Of a stretch of DNA of 38,020 nt, positions 6,503-33,481 are shown piece after piece. The stretch comes from Syntrophales bacterium (GTDB taxonomy: Bacteria > Desulfobacterota > Syntrophia > Syntrophales > UBA4778), in assembly GCA_028712885.1 (NCBI GenBank), contig JAQTPK010000029.1:1-38020 (forward strand). The letters are read 5' to 3'. The notes beneath the pieces are model-generated. The model saw only the letters and a list, made by a program, of their open reading frames with translations, was not told the DNA's origin and did no database searches. Numbering within the stretch: the first letter of the stretch is position 1; each line of letters starts with the position of its first letter. Both the position numbers and the translations under genes were made by a program.

Positions 6503-6521
6503 TATGGATCCCCCCTGACAG

Positions 6522-6610
6522 GTCATGGTTCGACCCTTCGACTCGACTCAGGGCTAACAGCTCACCATGACAAGCCCGTCTATTCTCGCAGCTTCGCAGC
6601 TTCCCAAATT
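6522..6610. repeat. REP-like palindrome plus short 8-bp tandem
   Basis: GTCATGGT (6522-6529) and ACCATGAC (6564-6571) are perfect inverted arms. Nested inside is CCCTTCGACTCGACTCAGGG, whose CCCT and AGGG ends also pair. The CCCTTCGA...CAGGG core resembles dispersed intergenic palindromes found in many proteobacteria. Next to it are octamers CGCAGCTT, CGCAGCTT, CCCAAATT (6587-6610). The element fills the gap between the rel stop and the amidase ribosome site. Confidence 0.6.
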
Positions 6611-6617
6611 CGTCCAT

Positions 6618-8777: not shown

Positions 8778-10498
8778 TTGATGTCGACTTCCCGGCGGAA
8801 AGCATCGGTGATGTAATCCAGCGCCGCCGGTACGGCCAGGACCTTTGTTTCGCCGGACTTCCTCTCCCGGACCTCCACCTTTCCTTCCGCAAGCCTCTTC
8901 GGGCCGATCGTAACGCGCAGCGGGATGCCGATCAGGTCCGCATCATTGAATTTGACTCCCGCCCTTTCGTCGCGGTCGTCGAGAATCACCTCCAATCCGC
9001 GCGCGAGGAGCGCTCCGTAAACCTCTTCCGAGGCTTTTGCCAGACCGGAGTCGTTTACGTTCACGGGAGTTATAATCACGTGATACGGCGCGACGGACAT
9101 CGGCCAGATAATTCCCTTGTCGTCATGATTCTGCTCAATGCAGGCCGCCGCCGTTCTGCCGATCCCGATTCCGTAGCAGCCCATGACCATGTATTGCTCA
9201 TGTCCGTCGCTGTCGAGATAGACGGCCTTCATCGCCTTGCTGTATTTGGTGCCGAGCTTGAAAATGTGTCCCACTTCTATCCCGCGGGCGAACTCGAAAG
9301 GCGAGCCGCAGCGGGCGCACCGGTCGAGGGGCGTGGCGAAGCGCAGGTCGGCGAACGCCTTCACGCGGAAGTCTCTTTCCAGATTGGCGTTGCGCACGTG
9401 ATAATCTTCCCTGTTCCCTCCCATGACGAAATTCTTCATGTGCATAAGGGAATAATCGGCCACGACGTCCGCCTTTACGCCGATCGCTCCCGCAAACCCC
9501 TTGGGCGAGCCCGTGACATTCAGCACAACGTCGTCCGCCGCCAGTTCCAGGCTGTCGCATTTCAGGTAGCTCCTCAGCTTGGCCTCATTGATTTCATGAT
9601 CCCCCCGGACGAGTACAGCTGCCGGTTTCCCGTCACACACGAAGATCAGCGTCTTGACGATGTCCTCGGCCTTTACCCCCAGAAACGCGCACACCTCCTC
9701 GATCGTCCTGACATCGGGCGTATGGACTTCTTCGAGAGGCTTCATCGCTTCGGCCGCACCCGGGGATTCGGGCCCGGCAATTTCGGCTTTCTCCAGGTTG
9801 GCGGCGTAGCCGCACCCGGGGTTTGAGCAGAAGATGACCGCGTCTTCTCCCGTTTCGGCCATGACCATGAACTCATGCGAAAAACTGCCTCCGATGTTTC
9901 CGGTGTCGGCTTCCACCGCGCGGAATTTCATTCCGCACCGGGTGAAGATGCGGCTGTATGCCTCGAACATTTTATCGTAGCTCTTGTCCGCTCCCGGCCA
10001 GTCCGCGTCGAAGCTGTACGCGTCTTTCATTCCGAATTCGCGGCAGCGCATCACCCCGAACCTGGGTCTTATTTCGTCCCGGAACTTCGTCTGGATCTGG
10101 TAAAGGTTGCGCGGGAGCTGGCGGTAAGTCTTGATTTCGTTGCGCACGAGGTCCGTCACGACCTCCTCATGCGTCGGCCCGATGCAGAATTCCCGCATGT
10201 GCCTGTCCTTGAACCGGAGCAGTTCCTTCCCGTACATGTCCCAGCGGCCGGATTCCTGCCAGAGTTCCGCGGGCTGCACGGCCGGCATGAATACTTCCTG
10301 CGCCCCCGCGCGGTTCATCTCCTCCCTTATGATCTGTTCGACCTTTCTGATCACCCGGTATCCGAGAGGCAGGTAAGAATAGATTCCGCCCGTCAGCTTC
10401 CGGATCATTCCCGCCCTGATCATGAGCTGATGGCTGACTGATTCCGCATCGGACGGCACTTCCCTGATCGTGGGCAGGAACATCTCAGAGTATCGCAT
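8765..10498 (-). CDS. proS: Prolyl-tRNA synthetase (bacterial type, with editing domain)
   Basis: A 577-residue class II synthetase that charges tRNA-Pro; a tRNA-Pro(TGG) gene lies downstream at 4371. The catalytic core shows RAGMIRKLTGGIYSYLPLG, the GPTHEE loop with TDLVRNEIKTYRQLP, motif 2 around FRDEIRPRFGVMRCREF, and motif 3 GCYGIGIGRTAAACIEQ. Between motifs 2 and 3 is the INS/YbaK-type editing insertion (about residues 225-385, IFVCDGKPAAVLVRGDHE) that clears Ala-tRNA-Pro. The ATG at 10498 has an AAGGAG site and begins at conserved MRYSEMFLPT. A GTG at 10570 overlapping the ispG stop would add 24 unconserved residues. Confidence 0.96.
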   Translation of the reverse strand: MRYSEMFLPTIREVPSDAESVSHQLMIRAGMIRKLTGGIYSYLPLGYRVIRKVEQIIREEMNRAGAQEVFMPAVQPAELWQESGRWDMYGKELLRFKDRHMREFCIGPTHEEVVTDLVRNEIKTYRQLPRNLYQIQTKFRDEIRPRFGVMRCREFGMKDAYSFDADWPGADKSYDKMFEAYSRIFTRCGMKFRAVEADTGNIGGSFSHEFMVMAETGEDAVIFCSNPGCGYAANLEKAEIAGPESPGAAEAMKPLEEVHTPDVRTIEEVCAFLGVKAEDIVKTLIFVCDGKPAAVLVRGDHEINEAKLRSYLKCDSLELAADDVVLNVTGSPKGFAGAIGVKADVVADYSLMHMKNFVMGGNREDYHVRNANLERDFRVKAFADLRFATPLDRCARCGSPFEFARGIEVGHIFKLGTKYSKAMKAVYLDSDGHEQYMVMGCYGIGIGRTAAACIEQNHDDKGIIWPMSVAPYHVIITPVNVNDSGLAKASEEVYGALLARGLEVILDDRDERAGVKFNDADLIGIPLRVTIGPKRLAEGKVEVRERKSGETKVLAVPAALDYITDAFRREVDIKCFE

Positions 10499-10566: not shown

Positions 10567-11622
10567 TCACTTCCAGTTGTCTATCTCGCCCATGAGGACC
10601 TCTATGAAATCCTCTTCCCTTACTTTCCGGACCGGTTTTCCCTTTCGGAAGAGCACGCCGGCCCCGCGTCCTCCGGCTATGCCGATATCGGCGTCCGCCG
10701 CTTCACCCGGCCCGTTGACGACGCATCCCATCAAGGCGATTTTCAGGTGCTTGCGGCTGCCGGCCAGCTTTTTCTCTATTTTATTCACCAGCCGGGACAG
10801 ATCGATCTCGCACCTTCCGCAAGTCGGGCACGAAACGATTTCCGGACCCACGCTGCGGATGCCCAGCGCCCTGAGAATCCCGTAGGCGACTCCGACTTCC
10901 CGGACCGGGTCCCCCGTTATGGATACCCGGATGGTATCTCCTATCCCTTCGTAAAGCAGGGAACCGATGCCCAGGGAAGACTTGATGCATGACTGGATCA
11001 GCGTGCCGGCTTCCGTCACCCCCAGGTGAAGCGGGCAATCCGTCCGGGCGGAAATTTTCCGATAGGCGTCGATCATGGTGGGCACGTCGGAAGACTTCAG
11101 GGAGATCTTAAGAGATTTGACTCCGGCTTCCTCCATCAGGGCGATTCCCCTCATGGCGCTCTCGACCAGCGCTTCCGCCCCGGTCCCCAGGCCTCTCCTG
11201 ATATCCTTTTCCAGCGATCCGGCGTTTACTCCCAGCCGCACGGCCGTGCCGTTTTCCCGCGCCGCAGCGGCGACGATCCGCAATTTCTCCCTGGAGATGT
11301 TACCGGGATTCACGCGGATTCCGTCCGCACCGGCGCTGATGGCGGCCAATGCGAGATGATAATCGAAGTGGATATCGGCTATTACCGGAATGCTTATTTT
11401 ACGTCTGATCCCGTCTATGGCGCGCGCGGCCGTGAGGTCGGGCACCGCCACCCGCACGATCTCGCACCCGGCCTTTTCAAGCCTGTGAATCTGCCCGACC
11501 GTAGCCCGTACATTCCTTGTATCCGTGCTGGTCATGGATTGTACGACTACCGGCTCGCCCCCGCCTATACGGACGCCTCCGACTGAAACGGCCCTTGTCT
11601 TTTTCCTTCCTGAAACGGGCAT
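10567..11622 (-). CDS. ispG: 4-hydroxy-3-methylbut-2-enyl diphosphate synthase (MEP pathway)
   Basis: A 351-residue iron-sulfur enzyme for the penultimate step of the MEP isoprenoid pathway, converting cyclic MEcPP to HMBPP. The N-terminal TIM-barrel half carries VVVQSMTSTDTRN, IADIHFDYHLAL and RVNPGN. The C-terminal [4Fe-4S] half has CPTCGRCEIDL and GCVVNGPGEAADADIGIAGG. It is the short bacterial form without a central insertion. Dxr of the same pathway is encoded at 18940. A good sigma-70 promoter lies 32-60 bp upstream, so ispG heads an ispG-proS-rel operon. The ATG at 11622 has little Shine-Dalgarno match. Confidence 0.96.
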   Translation of the reverse strand: MPVSGRKKTRAVSVGGVRIGGGEPVVVQSMTSTDTRNVRATVGQIHRLEKAGCEIVRVAVPDLTAARAIDGIRRKISIPVIADIHFDYHLALAAISAGADGIRVNPGNISREKLRIVAAAARENGTAVRLGVNAGSLEKDIRRGLGTGAEALVESAMRGIALMEEAGVKSLKISLKSSDVPTMIDAYRKISARTDCPLHLGVTEAGTLIQSCIKSSLGIGSLLYEGIGDTIRVSITGDPVREVGVAYGILRALGIRSVGPEIVSCPTCGRCEIDLSRLVNKIEKKLAGSRKHLKIALMGCVVNGPGEAADADIGIAGGRGAGVLFRKGKPVRKVREEDFIEVLMGEIDNWK

Positions 11623-11682: not shown

Positions 11683-11746
11683 TAGCTATATAGTATCGGG
11701 CAATGGGCGTCAGGCATCAGCTTCAGGACATGATAGAATTCAGAAT

Positions 11747-11888
11747 GCGGGAAAGGCGCGAAAAGCGCGAAAAAATCAATCCTCGATCAACCGGATAGGA
11801 TTAAATTCAGAAGCGATACTGGTAGTGAAAGGATGTTCCGGGCGGCTTCTTTCCCGCCCTTCCCGCCTTTCCCGCTTTTCTCGCCTTA
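11747..11888. repeat. Inverted pair of 9-bp periodic tracts reaching the aspC stop codon
   Basis: The left tract has GCGGGAAAG, GCGCGAAAA, GCGCGAAAA (11747-11773). The right tract has CCCGCCCTT, CCCGCCTTT, CCCGCTTTT, CTCGCCTTA (11853-11888). GCGGGAAAGGCG (11747-11758) and CGCCTTTCCCGC (11864-11875) are perfect complements. The last unit contains the aspC stop codon (11886-11888). CGCCTTTCCCGCTT (11864-11877) recurs exactly at 31472-31485. In the aspC transcript the tracts could fold into a long hairpin. Confidence 0.7.
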
Positions 11889-28713: not shown

Positions 28714-28741
28714 TATAATACACTTTCCCCATGGTTCGTAA
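28714..28741 (-). promoter_or_regulatory. Possible secA promoter upstream of the hairpin
   Basis: On the minus strand TTTACG (28741-28736) and TATTAT (28719-28714) are 16 bp apart; 4 of 6 and 5 of 6 matches. Transcription would start near 28707 and run through the hairpin at 28654-28679 before secA. No better promoter was seen between the hairpin and the gene. The -35 overlaps the edge of a heptamer array. Confidence 0.4.
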
Positions 28742-28807
28742 AGAGTAAAGCGTAAGGTGCAAGGGGTGAAAGATGAAAATCGCTTCACGCTTTACGCCTT
28801 ACGCTTT
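28737..28807. repeat. Inverted heptamer arrays after the M23 peptidase gene
   Basis: Left units: GTAAAGA, GTAAAGC, GTAAGGT, GCAAGGG, GTGAAAG, ATGAAAA (28737-28778). Right units: CGCTTCA, CGCTTTA, CGCCTTA, CGCTTTC (28780-28807). AAAGCGTAAGG (28746-28756) and CCTTACGCTTT (28796-28806) are perfect complements. The words match those of the array at 30433-30589. The array ends 7 bp from the M23 gene stop codon. Confidence 0.78.
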
Positions 28808-30408: not shown

Positions 30409-30432
30409 GGTTTCGGCCTCCGCTTTATTGTC

Positions 30433-30589
30433 GTAAGGTGTAAGGAGTAAGCCGTAAGGTGTTATTAAAAAACAATATGGAGTTTCTGGTTTCGAGTTAG
30501 CCCTGAACAGCAGATAACTGGGAAACTCGAGATCATATTTTCTTTTTTTATAAAACTCCTTACGATTTACTCCTGACGCCTTACGCACT
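30433..30589. repeat. Large inverted heptamer array between fpg and the DUF4177-like gene
   Basis: Left units: GTAAGGT, GTAAGGA, GTAAGCC, GTAAGGT, GTTATTA (30433-30467). Right units: ACTCCTT, ACGATTT, ACTCCTG, ACGCCTT, ACGCACT (30555-30589). Over 30 bases the left arm and the reverse complement of the right arm agree at 25 positions. The 90-bp centre also holds shorter complementary words (TCGAGTT/AACTCGA, AATATG/CATATT). The right array runs into the fpg stop codon (30588-30590). It is MITE-like in shape but has no target-site duplication that I can see. Confidence 0.78.
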
Positions 30590-31361
30590 AAACCTGGCAG
30601 CCGGGACAGTAGTACGTCCCTCTCCCCCCGACGACGATGCGGGCGATCTCGCCGCCGCACCGCCTGCATTTCGCGCCGGCAGATCCGTAGACCCTCAGGC
30701 GGTTCTGAAAGTCTCCTTTCCTCCCGTAAAGGTCGCGCCAGTCCGAAATGGAAGTCCCGCGCATGCTGATGGCCTCTTTAAAAATGAAGCGGATCGATCG
30801 GGAAAGCCGTTTCCATTCCGCCGGGGAAAGACCACGACACGGCCTGCGCGGGTCTATGCCCGACCGATACAAGGCCTCGCAGGCGTAAATGTTGCCCATT
30901 CCCGCCAGCACTTTCTGATCGAGCATGAAAGCCTTTATCGCTGTTTTCCGCGATTCGGCTTTCTTCCGCAGTGCTCCCGCATCAAGCTCGAGGAGGGCGT
31001 CGGCGCCCGGCCGCCGGTTTTTCCCTTCTACAAGCGAGAGGGTGGCAAACCTGCGCGGGTCAACCAGGAATATGTTTTCCCCGGGGAATGAAAAAAGAAA
31101 CCTTGCGTGGGGGGGGACGCCTTTTTCTTCAAGACGCAGGAACCGGCCGGTCATCCGCAAATGGAACTCCAGCGCCTGTCCGCCTTCCAGCCTGATTCTC
31201 AGCCATTTTCCCTGCCGCTCGACATCAAGAATTATGCGACCGGCCGTGTCTCCAGGTTTTCCGATCTTCTCGTCCAGGACTCTGGCGGCGCGAATCCGCT
31301 TTCCTTTTATCGCTGCCCGCAGCTGGCGGCAGACAGTTTCTACCTCAGGCAATTCCGGCAT
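30588..31361 (-). CDS. mutM: Formamidopyrimidine-DNA glycosylase
   Basis: A 257-residue base-excision repair enzyme that removes 8-oxoguanine and formamidopyrimidines and nicks the site by beta/delta elimination. The catalytic Pro follows the start Met in MPELPEVETV, with Glu next to it. The conserved Lys lies in the ERQGKWLRI segment. The helix-two-turn-helix shows KVLAGMGNIYACEALYRSGI with the essential Asn. The C-terminal zinc finger has CRRCGG and YYCPGCQ. A TATAAT box lies so close to the ATG that the message may be leaderless. It heads a group with the DUF4177-like gene and rubredoxin. Confidence 0.96.
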   Translation of the reverse strand: MPELPEVETVCRQLRAAIKGKRIRAARVLDEKIGKPGDTAGRIILDVERQGKWLRIRLEGGQALEFHLRMTGRFLRLEEKGVPPHARFLFSFPGENIFLVDPRRFATLSLVEGKNRRPGADALLELDAGALRKKAESRKTAIKAFMLDQKVLAGMGNIYACEALYRSGIDPRRPCRGLSPAEWKRLSRSIRFIFKEAISMRGTSISDWRDLYGRKGDFQNRLRVYGSAGAKCRRCGGEIARIVVGGRGTYYCPGCQV

Positions 31362-31366
31362 GATTG

Positions 31367-31396
31367 ATTATAGCACTATCGCGTCTGTCGCGTCCA
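31367..31396 (-). promoter_or_regulatory. Promoter of mutM, possibly leaderless
   Basis: On the minus strand a perfect TATAAT (31372-31367) lies 5 bp before the ATG at 31361. TGGACG (31396-31391) is 18 bp upstream as a partial -35 (4 of 6) and lies inside the 9-bp repeat array. The expected transcript start coincides with the ATG, which would make a leaderless mRNA. Confidence 0.55.
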
Positions 31397-31537
31397 TTGC
31401 GTCTGTCTCATCCATTGCGTCTGTTGCGTCTATTGCGCCAAGGAGTCATTGTCATCGTTTCCCGCATTTCGCGCCTTTCCCGCTTATTGACGCAAAAGAC
31501 GCAATGAACCCGGGACCCAATGGACGCCGAAAGACGC
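31381..31537. repeat. Continuous 9-bp periodic array filling the mutM-pycB gap
   Basis: About 17 nonamers follow one another. The left part is GCGTCTGTC, GCGTCCATT, GCGTCTGTC, TCATCCATT, GCGTCTGTT, GCGTCTATT (31381-31434). The centre has TTTCCCGCA, TTTCGCGCC, TTTCCCGCT (31458-31484). The right part carries inverted copies of the GCGTC word: TATTGACGC, AAAAGACGC, AATGGACGC, CGAAAGACGC (31485-31537, with small slips). The array stops exactly at the pycB stop codon. The central CGCCTTTCCCGCTT is shared with 11864-11877. Confidence 0.82.
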
Positions 31538-33481
31538 TCATGCCTCCATATTGATCGTCATCAGCCGATCGCCGACCTCGATATCAGACCCGGGAGACAC
31601 GAAGATCTCGGAAATTTTGCCGCTGACTTCGGACGTGATATTTGTGAGCATTTTCATCGCTTCGAGCACGACCAGTATCTCCCCGGTGTTTACCGCGTCT
31701 CCCACGGCCCCGGGTATCTGATTTACCAGCCCCTTGATCGGGGCGCGGATATCGCCGGAACGGGCAAGGGCCTCTATCTCCTTGGGAGACAGCGTGACCG
31801 CCCTGGGTTTCGCCCCGCCCTCGTCCTCAATCACCGTCAATATCGGTTCGGGGTGATGGTCCACGACAAGCAGTGTAATGTAATCACCATCCTTGGTCCG
31901 GCGCTGCGGGCCGATTTCCAGCTTGTGCAGTTTGCCGAAGGCATCCTGGAACTCGAATTTCTCGCCCAGGCTGAATCCCCCCTTCCGGAACCATACGCTC
32001 GGAGGGAGAACCCAGGTCTTGCCGTACTTCTCTTCGAATTTGAAAAAGCTCACGGCGTCATTAGGATGCTGGAGATAGAGGACCAGCTCATCCCCGGAAG
32101 CCGGGCGCCCAAGCCTGTGCTCCAGAACCCGTTTTTCTATTTCCAGGTCTACGTCCTCGATCTTCTGATACCCTCCTTCCCGCTCTATTATCTTTTTCCA
32201 GTCGCTTCCGAATACCGCCCTGTAAATTTCCTCTGCGGGCCGGTAGAATGGAAATTCCCCGTATCTCTCCAGCATCAGATTCTTGAGATCGTCATTGGCG
32301 TTCCTGTATCTCCCGTCTTTGATCACGTTGTTTACGGCCGTCGTCCACAGGATCTGGGAACCCGGGGTCACGCTCCACCAGTTCCCCAGCTCCACCTGGA
32401 CCTGGGGGAGCTCCTTCTGGAGGATGTCCGGCATCAGGTGCAGGAAATTACCTTTTACCGCCTGCTCGAAGCTGGATCCGGTTGCGCCGCCCGGCAGTTT
32501 ATGGATCTGGACGCTGGGGTCGAATCCGAGAAACTGCGATTCAAAGTCGCGGTAATTCTCTCTTTCCGGCCTCAGGACGTTGGAAGTGTCTATAACGGAC
32601 TGTTTGTCGAGACCGACGGCGCGGTAACCGTAGTCTTCCAGCGTTTCGACTACCGTCAGAATCGGGGGGGGACCGAAGAAACCGACGAAGGAATGATCGC
32701 CGGCGTCCACGATCTTCGCCCCGTTTCGGACTGCCTCGACGATCCTGCCGATGTCGTTCCCGTCAGTGTTGTGCCCGTGGTAATGTATGATCAGGCTCGG
32801 GTACCTGTCCAGGATGGCGCGGACGAGATCCCCGATCCGTTTTGCCGTGCCGAGGCCGGCGTGATTCTTGATGCACAGCAGGATGTCCGGACCGGTCACT
32901 TCCAGGATCTCCCCGACTTTTCCTACGTAGAACTCGTCCGTATGTTCGGGGCCCGTGGAAAAGCAAATCGACGGCTCCAGGAGGCAGTCGGCCTTTTTTA
33001 CCTCCTCGAAAACCGGGACCATGTTCGGTATGTAGTTGAGGAAATCGAAGACCCTCCACACGTGAACGTATTTTGCGAACGCCCCCACGGTAAGGCGGAT
33101 CACGTTGTCCGGGTAGGGACGGTATCCGAACAGGTTGATTCCCCGGCAAAGCGTCTGGAAAAGGGTGTCCGGCATGTAAGCGCTCAGGATCTGGAGCTTC
33201 TCCAGCGGGCTGATCTGCTTGCGCAGCAGGTCGACATGGACGGACGCCCCGCCGGATATCTCAATGGAGAAGAACCCCGCGGCGTTCCTCGGCTCTGCGC
33301 CCAGGATCTGCGTATGCGGCATAATGCGGTTTTTGAAGTCCGACTGGGAAAGGTCCCTCTCCGTATTGGTTACGAAGTATCCTTTCGCCTTCCGCACCCT
33401 CTCCAGTATACTTTTGACCCCCGCCCTCTTCAGGTCGCCAGGGGTGATTCTCTCATCGGCTTTCCTTGGTCTTGCTGTCAT
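31538..33481 (-). CDS. Carboxyltransferase/biotin carrier subunit (PycB/OadA-like, divergent)
   Basis: A 647-residue protein with a PYC/OADA-type carboxyltransferase half and a C-terminal biotinyl domain (about 575-645, biotin Lys in VVLEAMKMLTN). The metal site can be followed: Asp in TERDLSQSDF, Lys in LLCIKNHAGLGTA and the HxH in YHGHNTDG. CRGINLFGYRPYPDNVI and KLPGGATGSSFEQA are the usual substrate blocks. The wording is divergent, for example HGHNTDG and FVGFFGPPPIL where ordinary PycB has HTHDTxG and a SxP loop. With the biotin carboxylase encoded next to it, it most likely makes oxaloacetate from pyruvate and bicarbonate. Another 2-oxo or acyl acceptor is possible. ATG 33481 has GGGAGG. 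Confidence 0.85.
   Translation of the reverse strand: MTARPRKADERITPGDLKRAGVKSILERVRKAKGYFVTNTERDLSQSDFKNRIMPHTQILGAEPRNAAGFFSIEISGGASVHVDLLRKQISPLEKLQILSAYMPDTLFQTLCRGINLFGYRPYPDNVIRLTVGAFAKYVHVWRVFDFLNYIPNMVPVFEEVKKADCLLEPSICFSTGPEHTDEFYVGKVGEILEVTGPDILLCIKNHAGLGTAKRIGDLVRAILDRYPSLIIHYHGHNTDGNDIGRIVEAVRNGAKIVDAGDHSFVGFFGPPPILTVVETLEDYGYRAVGLDKQSVIDTSNVLRPERENYRDFESQFLGFDPSVQIHKLPGGATGSSFEQAVKGNFLHLMPDILQKELPQVQVELGNWWSVTPGSQILWTTAVNNVIKDGRYRNANDDLKNLMLERYGEFPFYRPAEEIYRAVFGSDWKKIIEREGGYQKIEDVDLEIEKRVLEHRLGRPASGDELVLYLQHPNDAVSFFKFEEKYGKTWVLPPSVWFRKGGFSLGEKFEFQDAFGKLHKLEIGPQRRTKDGDYITLLVVDHHPEPILTVIEDEGGAKPRAVTLSPKEIEALARSGDIRAPIKGLVNQIPGAVGDAVNTGEILVVLEAMKMLTNITSEVSGKISEIFVSPGSDIEVGDRLMTINMEA

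Follow-up and report, generated by a model that had tools for sequence, protein, structure and literature searches.

A 9-bp Word Array between pycB and mutM as a Probable Member of a Dispersed Intergenic Repeat Population in a Syntrophales Genome

Introduction

Arrays of short degenerate words are known from several bacterial groups. In Xanthomonas campestris and X. axonopodis, hundreds of degenerate, G-rich heptamers (GGGAATC/GGGANTN) have been described, approximately 90% of them intergenic, which form 70-75 facing (convergent) pairs of arrays able to form stem-loops (PMC4692102). They lie nearer to the 5' ORF (28 versus 160 nt), are rarer between divergent genes, and vary in length between species (PMC4692102). 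In Nostoc, the P6b stem of the tRNA-Leu(UAA) intron is built from the heptamers TDNGATT and NNTGAGT and shows indels of 7-nt units (PMC4476775). TAACTGA direct repeats occur in marine Beggiatoaceae, Cyanobacteria, and Bacteroidetes (PMC4679880). REPIN/REP sequences with RAYT transposases are short inverted repeats of intergenic DNA that spread by copying (PMC3116915). In the papers searched, nothing on such repeats in Syntrophus was found.

Here we analyze an array of 9-bp words that fills most of the gap between mutM and pycB in a Syntrophales bacterium. The window, i.e., the whole stretch of DNA that was analyzed, comprises 38,020 nucleotides. In layout, the repeats of this genome resemble those of Xanthomonas very closely, in that their units stand in tandem and have fixed as well as free positions, and that they are mostly intergenic, arranged as inverted convergent pairs near gene edges, follow the same polarity rule, and are rarer between divergent ORFs. 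They differ in that Xanthomonas uses one heptamer able to form G-quadruplexes, whereas here there are about ten words, each 7, 8, or 9 bp long; several of them (GCGTCYRTT, GARGNTGN) lack G tracts, and the vocabulary is common to a second genus. At the locus itself, the words are the 9-bp GCGTCYRTY and TTTCSCGCN rather than a G-quadruplex heptamer of the type GGGANTN/GGGGAYT. The Nostoc P6b stem likewise has arms of degenerate units with fixed and free positions, but it represents one locus inside a group I intron whose structure must be kept, while our arrays are free-standing in many gaps. TAACTGA repeats are a looser parallel; they share the intergenic heptamer arrays, the many loci, and the patchy occurrence in distant lineages; in contrast, they consist of a near-invariant single word, are direct instead of inverted, and lie just upstream of start codons. 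With REPINs, the intergenic inverted repeats are shared, while here no RAYT was found and the arms are periodic and degenerate. The mutM-pycB repeat belongs to a class of intergenic repeats in bacteria that has received little study and is known from Xanthomonas and Nostoc. What is new is that so many words occur, that they come in three unit lengths including nonamers without G tracts, and that degenerate positions are shared across genera.

Results

The Array in the pycB-mutM Gap

The locus is composed of the following features (positions are those of the window):

31362-31537, no strand: the whole mutM-pycB gap, nearly all of which is one long inverted repeat (hairpin)
31381-31443, plus strand: left arm, seven 9-bp positions GCGTC[CT][AG]T[TC] (9a word); TRF, lag-9 identity 0.64
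31444-31457, no strand: aperiodic spacer of 14 bp without unit and without lag signal
31458-31483, plus strand: centre, three units TTTC[CG]CGCN (9b word); TRF
31486-31506, minus strand: in-register part of the right arm, GACGCAAAA GACGCAATG, carrying the 9a word as its reverse complement; pairs with the left arm in folds
31507-31537, minus strand: outer right arm, degenerate and off register; abuts the pycB stop codon
30588-31361, minus strand: mutM (fpg), DNA-formamidopyrimidine glycosylase, the downstream gene; NCBIfam PRK01103.1, 230.6 bits, over the cut-off
31538-33481, minus strand: pycB-like pyruvate carboxylase subunit B, the upstream gene; NCBIfam PRK12999/PRK09282, below equivalog cut-offs

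GCGTC units of the left arm start at 31381, 31390, 31399, 31417, and 31426, with the variants TCATC at 31408 and GCGCC at 31435. TTTCSCGC units begin at 31458, 31467, and 31476, and GACGC units follow at 31489 and 31498; the two right units in phase with the centre read GACGCAANN. Farther out, the units GACCCAATG (31513, starting with GACCC), GACGCCGAA (31522, starting with GACGC), and GACGC (31533) are off register. The endings TGTY and CATT alternate in the left arm, and therefore its best TRF period is 18 (score 86) and not 9 (score 54). Lag-9 identity is 0.79 in the centre and 0.42 in the right part. Pooled autocorrelation over 31376-31537 peaks at lag 9 (0.52, z 7.3), lag 18 (0.47, z 6.0), and lag 27 (0.38, z 3.3), with no peak at neighbouring lags. 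Over 31381-31537, lag-9 identity is 0.514, while the best value over lags 5-12 in 5,000 shuffles is 0.421.

The 9-bp periodicity of the gap, which had been proposed from the letters alone in an earlier note on this DNA, is thus confirmed, and the unit positions bear out that the left and right arrays are mutually inverted around a centre of a different word. Its description of the entire gap as one array of about 17 nonamers does not hold: 31444-31457 carries no unit, the outer right arm is off register, and about 12 units are clear. A 9-bp register kept across the change of word and strand is present here for the left, centre, and first right units. As a general rule it fails, because the registers between words differ in other gaps: there, the offset of GCGTC arrays from TTTCSCGC or GCGSGAAA arrays scatters, and indels of 2 bp set near-copies of the junction between centre and right arm apart. 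A conserved phase between the two 9-bp words was rejected on this scatter, as was a strict nesting of 9b inside 9a (order 4 versus 4). Finally, an ORF does run through the array, as the note had expected (30925-31554, plus strand), but it is antisense to mutM and was not called by our coding-score gene caller.

Folding of the Gap

The gap folds with a predicted energy of -75.1 kcal/mol on the minus strand (z -6.45) and -68.6 kcal/mol on the plus strand (z -5.97); none of 200 shuffles folded as well. No Rfam family matched the mutM-pycB locus. Summed pairing of cognate arms was 282, compared to 290.6 (sd 10.8) for permuted arms, and thus gave no sign of arm-arm covariation or templated arm correction. 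On the sense strand, G-U (72) and A-C (64) mismatches were equally frequent, i.e., no RNA wobble signature was seen. Since an arm matches its own partner no better than it matches arms of other loci, and G-U equals A-C, arm pairing is a family-level property without sign of locus-by-locus RNA selection. A conserved structured RNA, which the note had named as an alternative, found no support at the array on any of these three counts. An intrinsic terminator found none either, no terminator-like hairpin followed by a T run being seen in the mutM-pycB gap.

Dispersal through the Genome

We searched the draft MAG (2.93 Mb, 97 contigs, called 99%-complete), which its pycB relatives assign to the Syntrophales, with the two 9-bp words and obtained 49 dispersed matches, which largely exclude a private local minisatellite at mutM-pycB. 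About one third of the genome (1.01 Mb), part of it picked by word matches, was analyzed with TRF; genes were called with a home-made hexamer model trained on the genome's own long ORFs, which recovers the known genes of the window. A sample of 629 kb taken without regard to matches contained 131 TRF arrays, mostly of periods 7/14/21, 8/16, and 9/18. Although gaps make up only 11% of this sequence, 85 of the 131 arrays are intergenic (31/36, 21/27, and 5/6 for periods 7, 14, and 9, respectively). Real gaps held 75 arrays and shuffled gaps none, and pooled gap autocorrelation peaked at 7 (z 20), 14, 21, and 8. Extrapolating from the sample, we estimate about 350 gaps with 7-, 8-, or 9-bp arrays per genome. 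Array density is 1.21 per kb in tandem, 0.89 in convergent, and 0.74 in divergent gaps.

The 9b word makes its own arrays and hairpins at many other loci of the genome. Three further hairpins lie in the window:

11741-11885, no strand: 9b-word hairpin GCGGGAAAGGCGCGAAAAGCGCGAAAA ... CTTTCCCGCCCTTCCCGCCTTTCCCGC, flanked by two minus-strand genes, the 9b word being seen at 11747-11887; TRF, gap dG -81.5
28737-28807, no strand: 7-bp-word hairpin CGTAAAGAGTAAAGCGTAAGG ... TTCACGCTTTACGCCTTACG; TRF and fold
30432-30587, no strand: 7-bp-word hairpin CGTAAGGTGTAAGGAGTAAG ... ACTCCTTACG...GCCTTACG in the second gap that flanks mutM; TRF, gap dG -65.2

The array at 28737-28807 is missing from the syntenic gap of the relative G001 (see below).

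Word Families and Positional Constraint

The arrays fall into about ten degenerate word families, each with one unit length, whose patterns were partly picked after the data had been seen. The 9-bp words are GCGTC[CT][AG]TT and TTTC[CG]CGCN, the 8-bp words GA[AG]GNTGN and relatives, and the 7-bp words GT[AG]A[GA]GN, GGCNAA[GA], GGGTATT-like, TTTGGGA, and GTTTCNN. Unit profiles were built from units located between two matching units, which are thus not selected by their own match. In these middle units of the 9-bp words, core positions agree at 86-100%, and each variable position takes two to four states; the contrast between the Y/R positions and the core of 9a gives a Fisher p of 8e-7. The same positions vary in G001, a second genus of the family. 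Variation at fixed positions that recurs in another genus hints at constraint or a biased writer over free drift.

In families 7a and 9b, a unit resembles its neighbours no more than it resembles units of other arrays, a pattern not expected from plain slippage. Units of 9a are similar only at two units apart and not at one, while neighbours show similarity in the 8, 7b, and 7c arrays.

Polarity and Inverted Pairing

Within a gap, the words follow a fixed strand order. GTAAGG precedes CCTTAC in 22/22 cases and GCGGGAAA precedes TTTCCCGC in 5/5; TTGCGTC precedes GACGCAA in 3/3 (4/4 with a looser word), the number of 9a pairs being small. Usually, G-rich forms occupy the left side of a gap and C-rich forms its right side, independent of gene orientation: polarity r is -0.74, -0.47, -0.56, and -0.50 in the four gene-orientation classes (strand-flip null sd 0.07), compared to +0.09 in control windows of array-free gaps. 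Arrays without a detectable partner keep the polarity (r -0.65). One family (7d) shows the opposite polarity.

An inverted partner in the same gap was found for 116 of 234 arrays versus 20 in the null, while direct partners show no excess (27 versus 18). Facing arrays sit at relative positions 0.26 and 0.76 of the gap. Inverted repeats at z > 3 occur in 58% of array gaps and in 18% of other gaps. Where a tandem gap holds a strong inverted repeat, it starts at a median of 4 bp past the upstream stop and leaves 22 bp up to the start of the following gene.

Relatives and Other Genomes

Adjacency of pycB and mutM is kept in both family relatives, G001 and G002, with array-free gaps of 45 and 33 bp, respectively. 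The relatives thus do not carry the invariant conserved gap that the earlier note had allowed for as a contrary outcome. Because these gaps are array-free, the array appears as a lineage-specific gain, and the best-supported reading is that it was probably acquired at pycB-mutM after the split from G001 and G002; a loss in both relatives would be less economical. The relatives' gaps have diverged too far to set the array boundary.

This genome and G001 share 68 syntenic gene pairs, with a median reciprocal-best-hit identity of 54%. For most array gaps of this genome within these pairs, the G001 counterpart has either no array or arrays of other words. A GGCNAA-type facing array is kept in both genera in the orthologous gap of L166 and L256; L166:9772-9937 and L256:15747-15960 retain GGCTAAA / TTTGCC and represent one of few positionally conserved cases. 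Among the top 200 enriched intergenic 8-mers, 39 are common to this genome and G001 versus 1.2 expected by chance, part of this overlap being due to other dispersed repeats; none is common with five other genomes pooled. GTAAGGN x3 occurs in 14/155 genomes of the order, GCGTCYRTT x3 only in this genome and G001, and GAAGNTGN x3 in 10/345 genomes of a phylum sample, where the reversed control gave 2 matches.

Six viral contigs contain the 9a word, in some cases probably within coding sequence. L261 (IMG/VR, 13.3 kb, 64% GC) shows a 9a facing array of the same polarity, GCGTCTATT-to-GACGC. This contig, viral or mis-binned and clearly from a different genome, bears several facing 9-bp arrays (GCGTCTATT and GGTCTGTCT words) and a CCCTGAGCTTGTCGAA-type repeat. 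A search of a phage collection gave no match, and a plasmid search gave two partial matches (72-79%).

Shared Segments and Unit-Length Change

At least 45 bp are common with another gap in 76/159 array gaps versus 37/281 array-free gaps; in part, these segments may reflect shared words rather than block copies. Versions of the composite 9b-9a junction (centre/right) that are 86-90% identical over 50-56 bp lie in two other gaps, with 2-bp shifts. Near L161:14190, paralogous arrays of 8-bp words are set apart by indels of exactly 8 bp, i.e., their unit number changes in multiples of the period. The active repeat process suggested by the note is upheld in general by these exact indels and by the array-free gaps of the relatives. 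Its second suggestion, selection on spacing across words, finds no support, since elsewhere the phase of one word relative to another varies between loci.

Other Repeats

Further repeat types were seen along the way. An intergenic element of approximately 300 bp, 92-95% identical and unlike the short-word arrays, is dispersed over L163:7301-8103, L131:12458-12964, and L196:19349-19700. Elements bounded by AGGGACACTCCCCATATT with its complement at the other end occur at L161:4514-4845 / 9715-10411 and L196:2765-3155 / 11185-11610 as pairs of 86-90% identity; they look REP-type, although the assembly holds no Y1 transposase. Composite repeats with GTCATGGT...ACCATGAC, TTCGACAAGCTCAGG-like, and CTGGATTCC/GGAATGAC-like words are located at 6503-6617 of the window, at L124:14111-14160, and in gaps of G001; they are enriched in gaps of both genomes. 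A long, near-perfect, aperiodic inverted repeat AACTCTCCCCTGCAAATT...AATTTGCAGGGGAGA lies at 1809-2203 of the window between two plus-strand genes.

Discussion

We conclude, with a probability of about 0.6, that the mutM-pycB array is a member of a large, dispersed, non-coding intergenic repeat population of this Syntrophales genome that is copied between gaps. This reading draws on dispersal, fixed polarity, inverted pairing, a vocabulary common to a second genus, lineage-specific presence at the locus, shared segments, and 8-bp indels, each directly observed. In such an element, a middle particular to the locus would lie between two arrays that face each other and are made of one degenerate word of 7, 8, or 9 bp, and the gap could thereby fold back on itself as a long hairpin. 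New arrays would arise when short blocks of existing arrays are copied into other gaps, possibly through template switching among hairpin-forming tracts or through ectopic conversion between them; we infer that unit number changes afterwards by slippage. Against this reading speak the missing neighbour similarity in 7a and 9b, the variation confined to fixed positions that recur in another genus, and the chance that shared words account for part of the shared segments. About 130-140 bp would have been added at pycB-mutM to a gap that had measured a few tens of bp. Tight intergenic gaps presumably tolerate such arrays, the element would be dispensable for mutM and pycB, and any effect on the mRNA would be incidental.

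Some of these observations might also be accommodated by function. If the words were binding motifs of a nucleoid or RNA-binding protein, with facing arrays selected as paired platforms, one would understand the fixed polarity as well as the position-specific constraint with two-state variable positions, the same in G001. About ten unrelated words of three unit lengths, positions that turn over between genera, and the lack of a strong dependence on gene orientation make this unlikely. A transcribed RNA hairpin, serving as 3'-end protector or terminator between pycB and mutM, would fit the strong predicted hairpin and the median distance of 4 bp past the upstream stop in tandem gaps. We regard it as quite unlikely, given that the gap contains no U-tract terminator site, arrays are not enriched in convergent gaps, G-U equals A-C, and own arms pair no better than foreign ones.

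Two explanations by repeat mechanics remain to be weighed. Movement of a mobile inverted-repeat element (MITE or REPIN) by a transposase would agree with the inverted-repeat layout, the intergenic dispersal, and the blocks common between gaps. MITEs would, however, be expected to have a conserved interior and exact terminal repeats, and neither was found: no interior is family-wide, the loops are unrelated between loci, the arms vary in number and sequence, and there are many word families. In addition, a search for Y1/RAYT transposases (PF01797) gave 0 matches in the genome, with positive controls, and an element of this kind is therefore very unlikely. Local replication slippage at a chance seed, creating a private minisatellite, could produce the 18-bp higher-order period of 9a and the unit-length indels of the 8-mer arrays, but hundreds of loci, and a second genus as well, carry these words, and inverted pairing and polarity are left unexplained; this origin is highly improbable. 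More generally, fixed polarity and cross-genus positional constraint are not explained by slippage alone.

Intergenic arrays of 7-9 bp have been counted in bacterial surveys, and a single genome here holds about ten families of them. Polarity, pairing, positional constraint, and cross-genus sharing can be measured in them together, and this shows that more than simple local slippage must be at work. It is conceivable, though in our view distinctly unlikely, that a conserved copying enzyme or recogniser writes this fixed-polarity vocabulary of 7-, 8-, and 9-bp words into the intergenic DNA of distant bacteria. If true, such a dedicated writer would explain the identical constant and variable positions in genera whose proteins are only approximately 54% identical, the neighbouring units that often show no closer likeness, and the facing array in a GC-rich viral contig.
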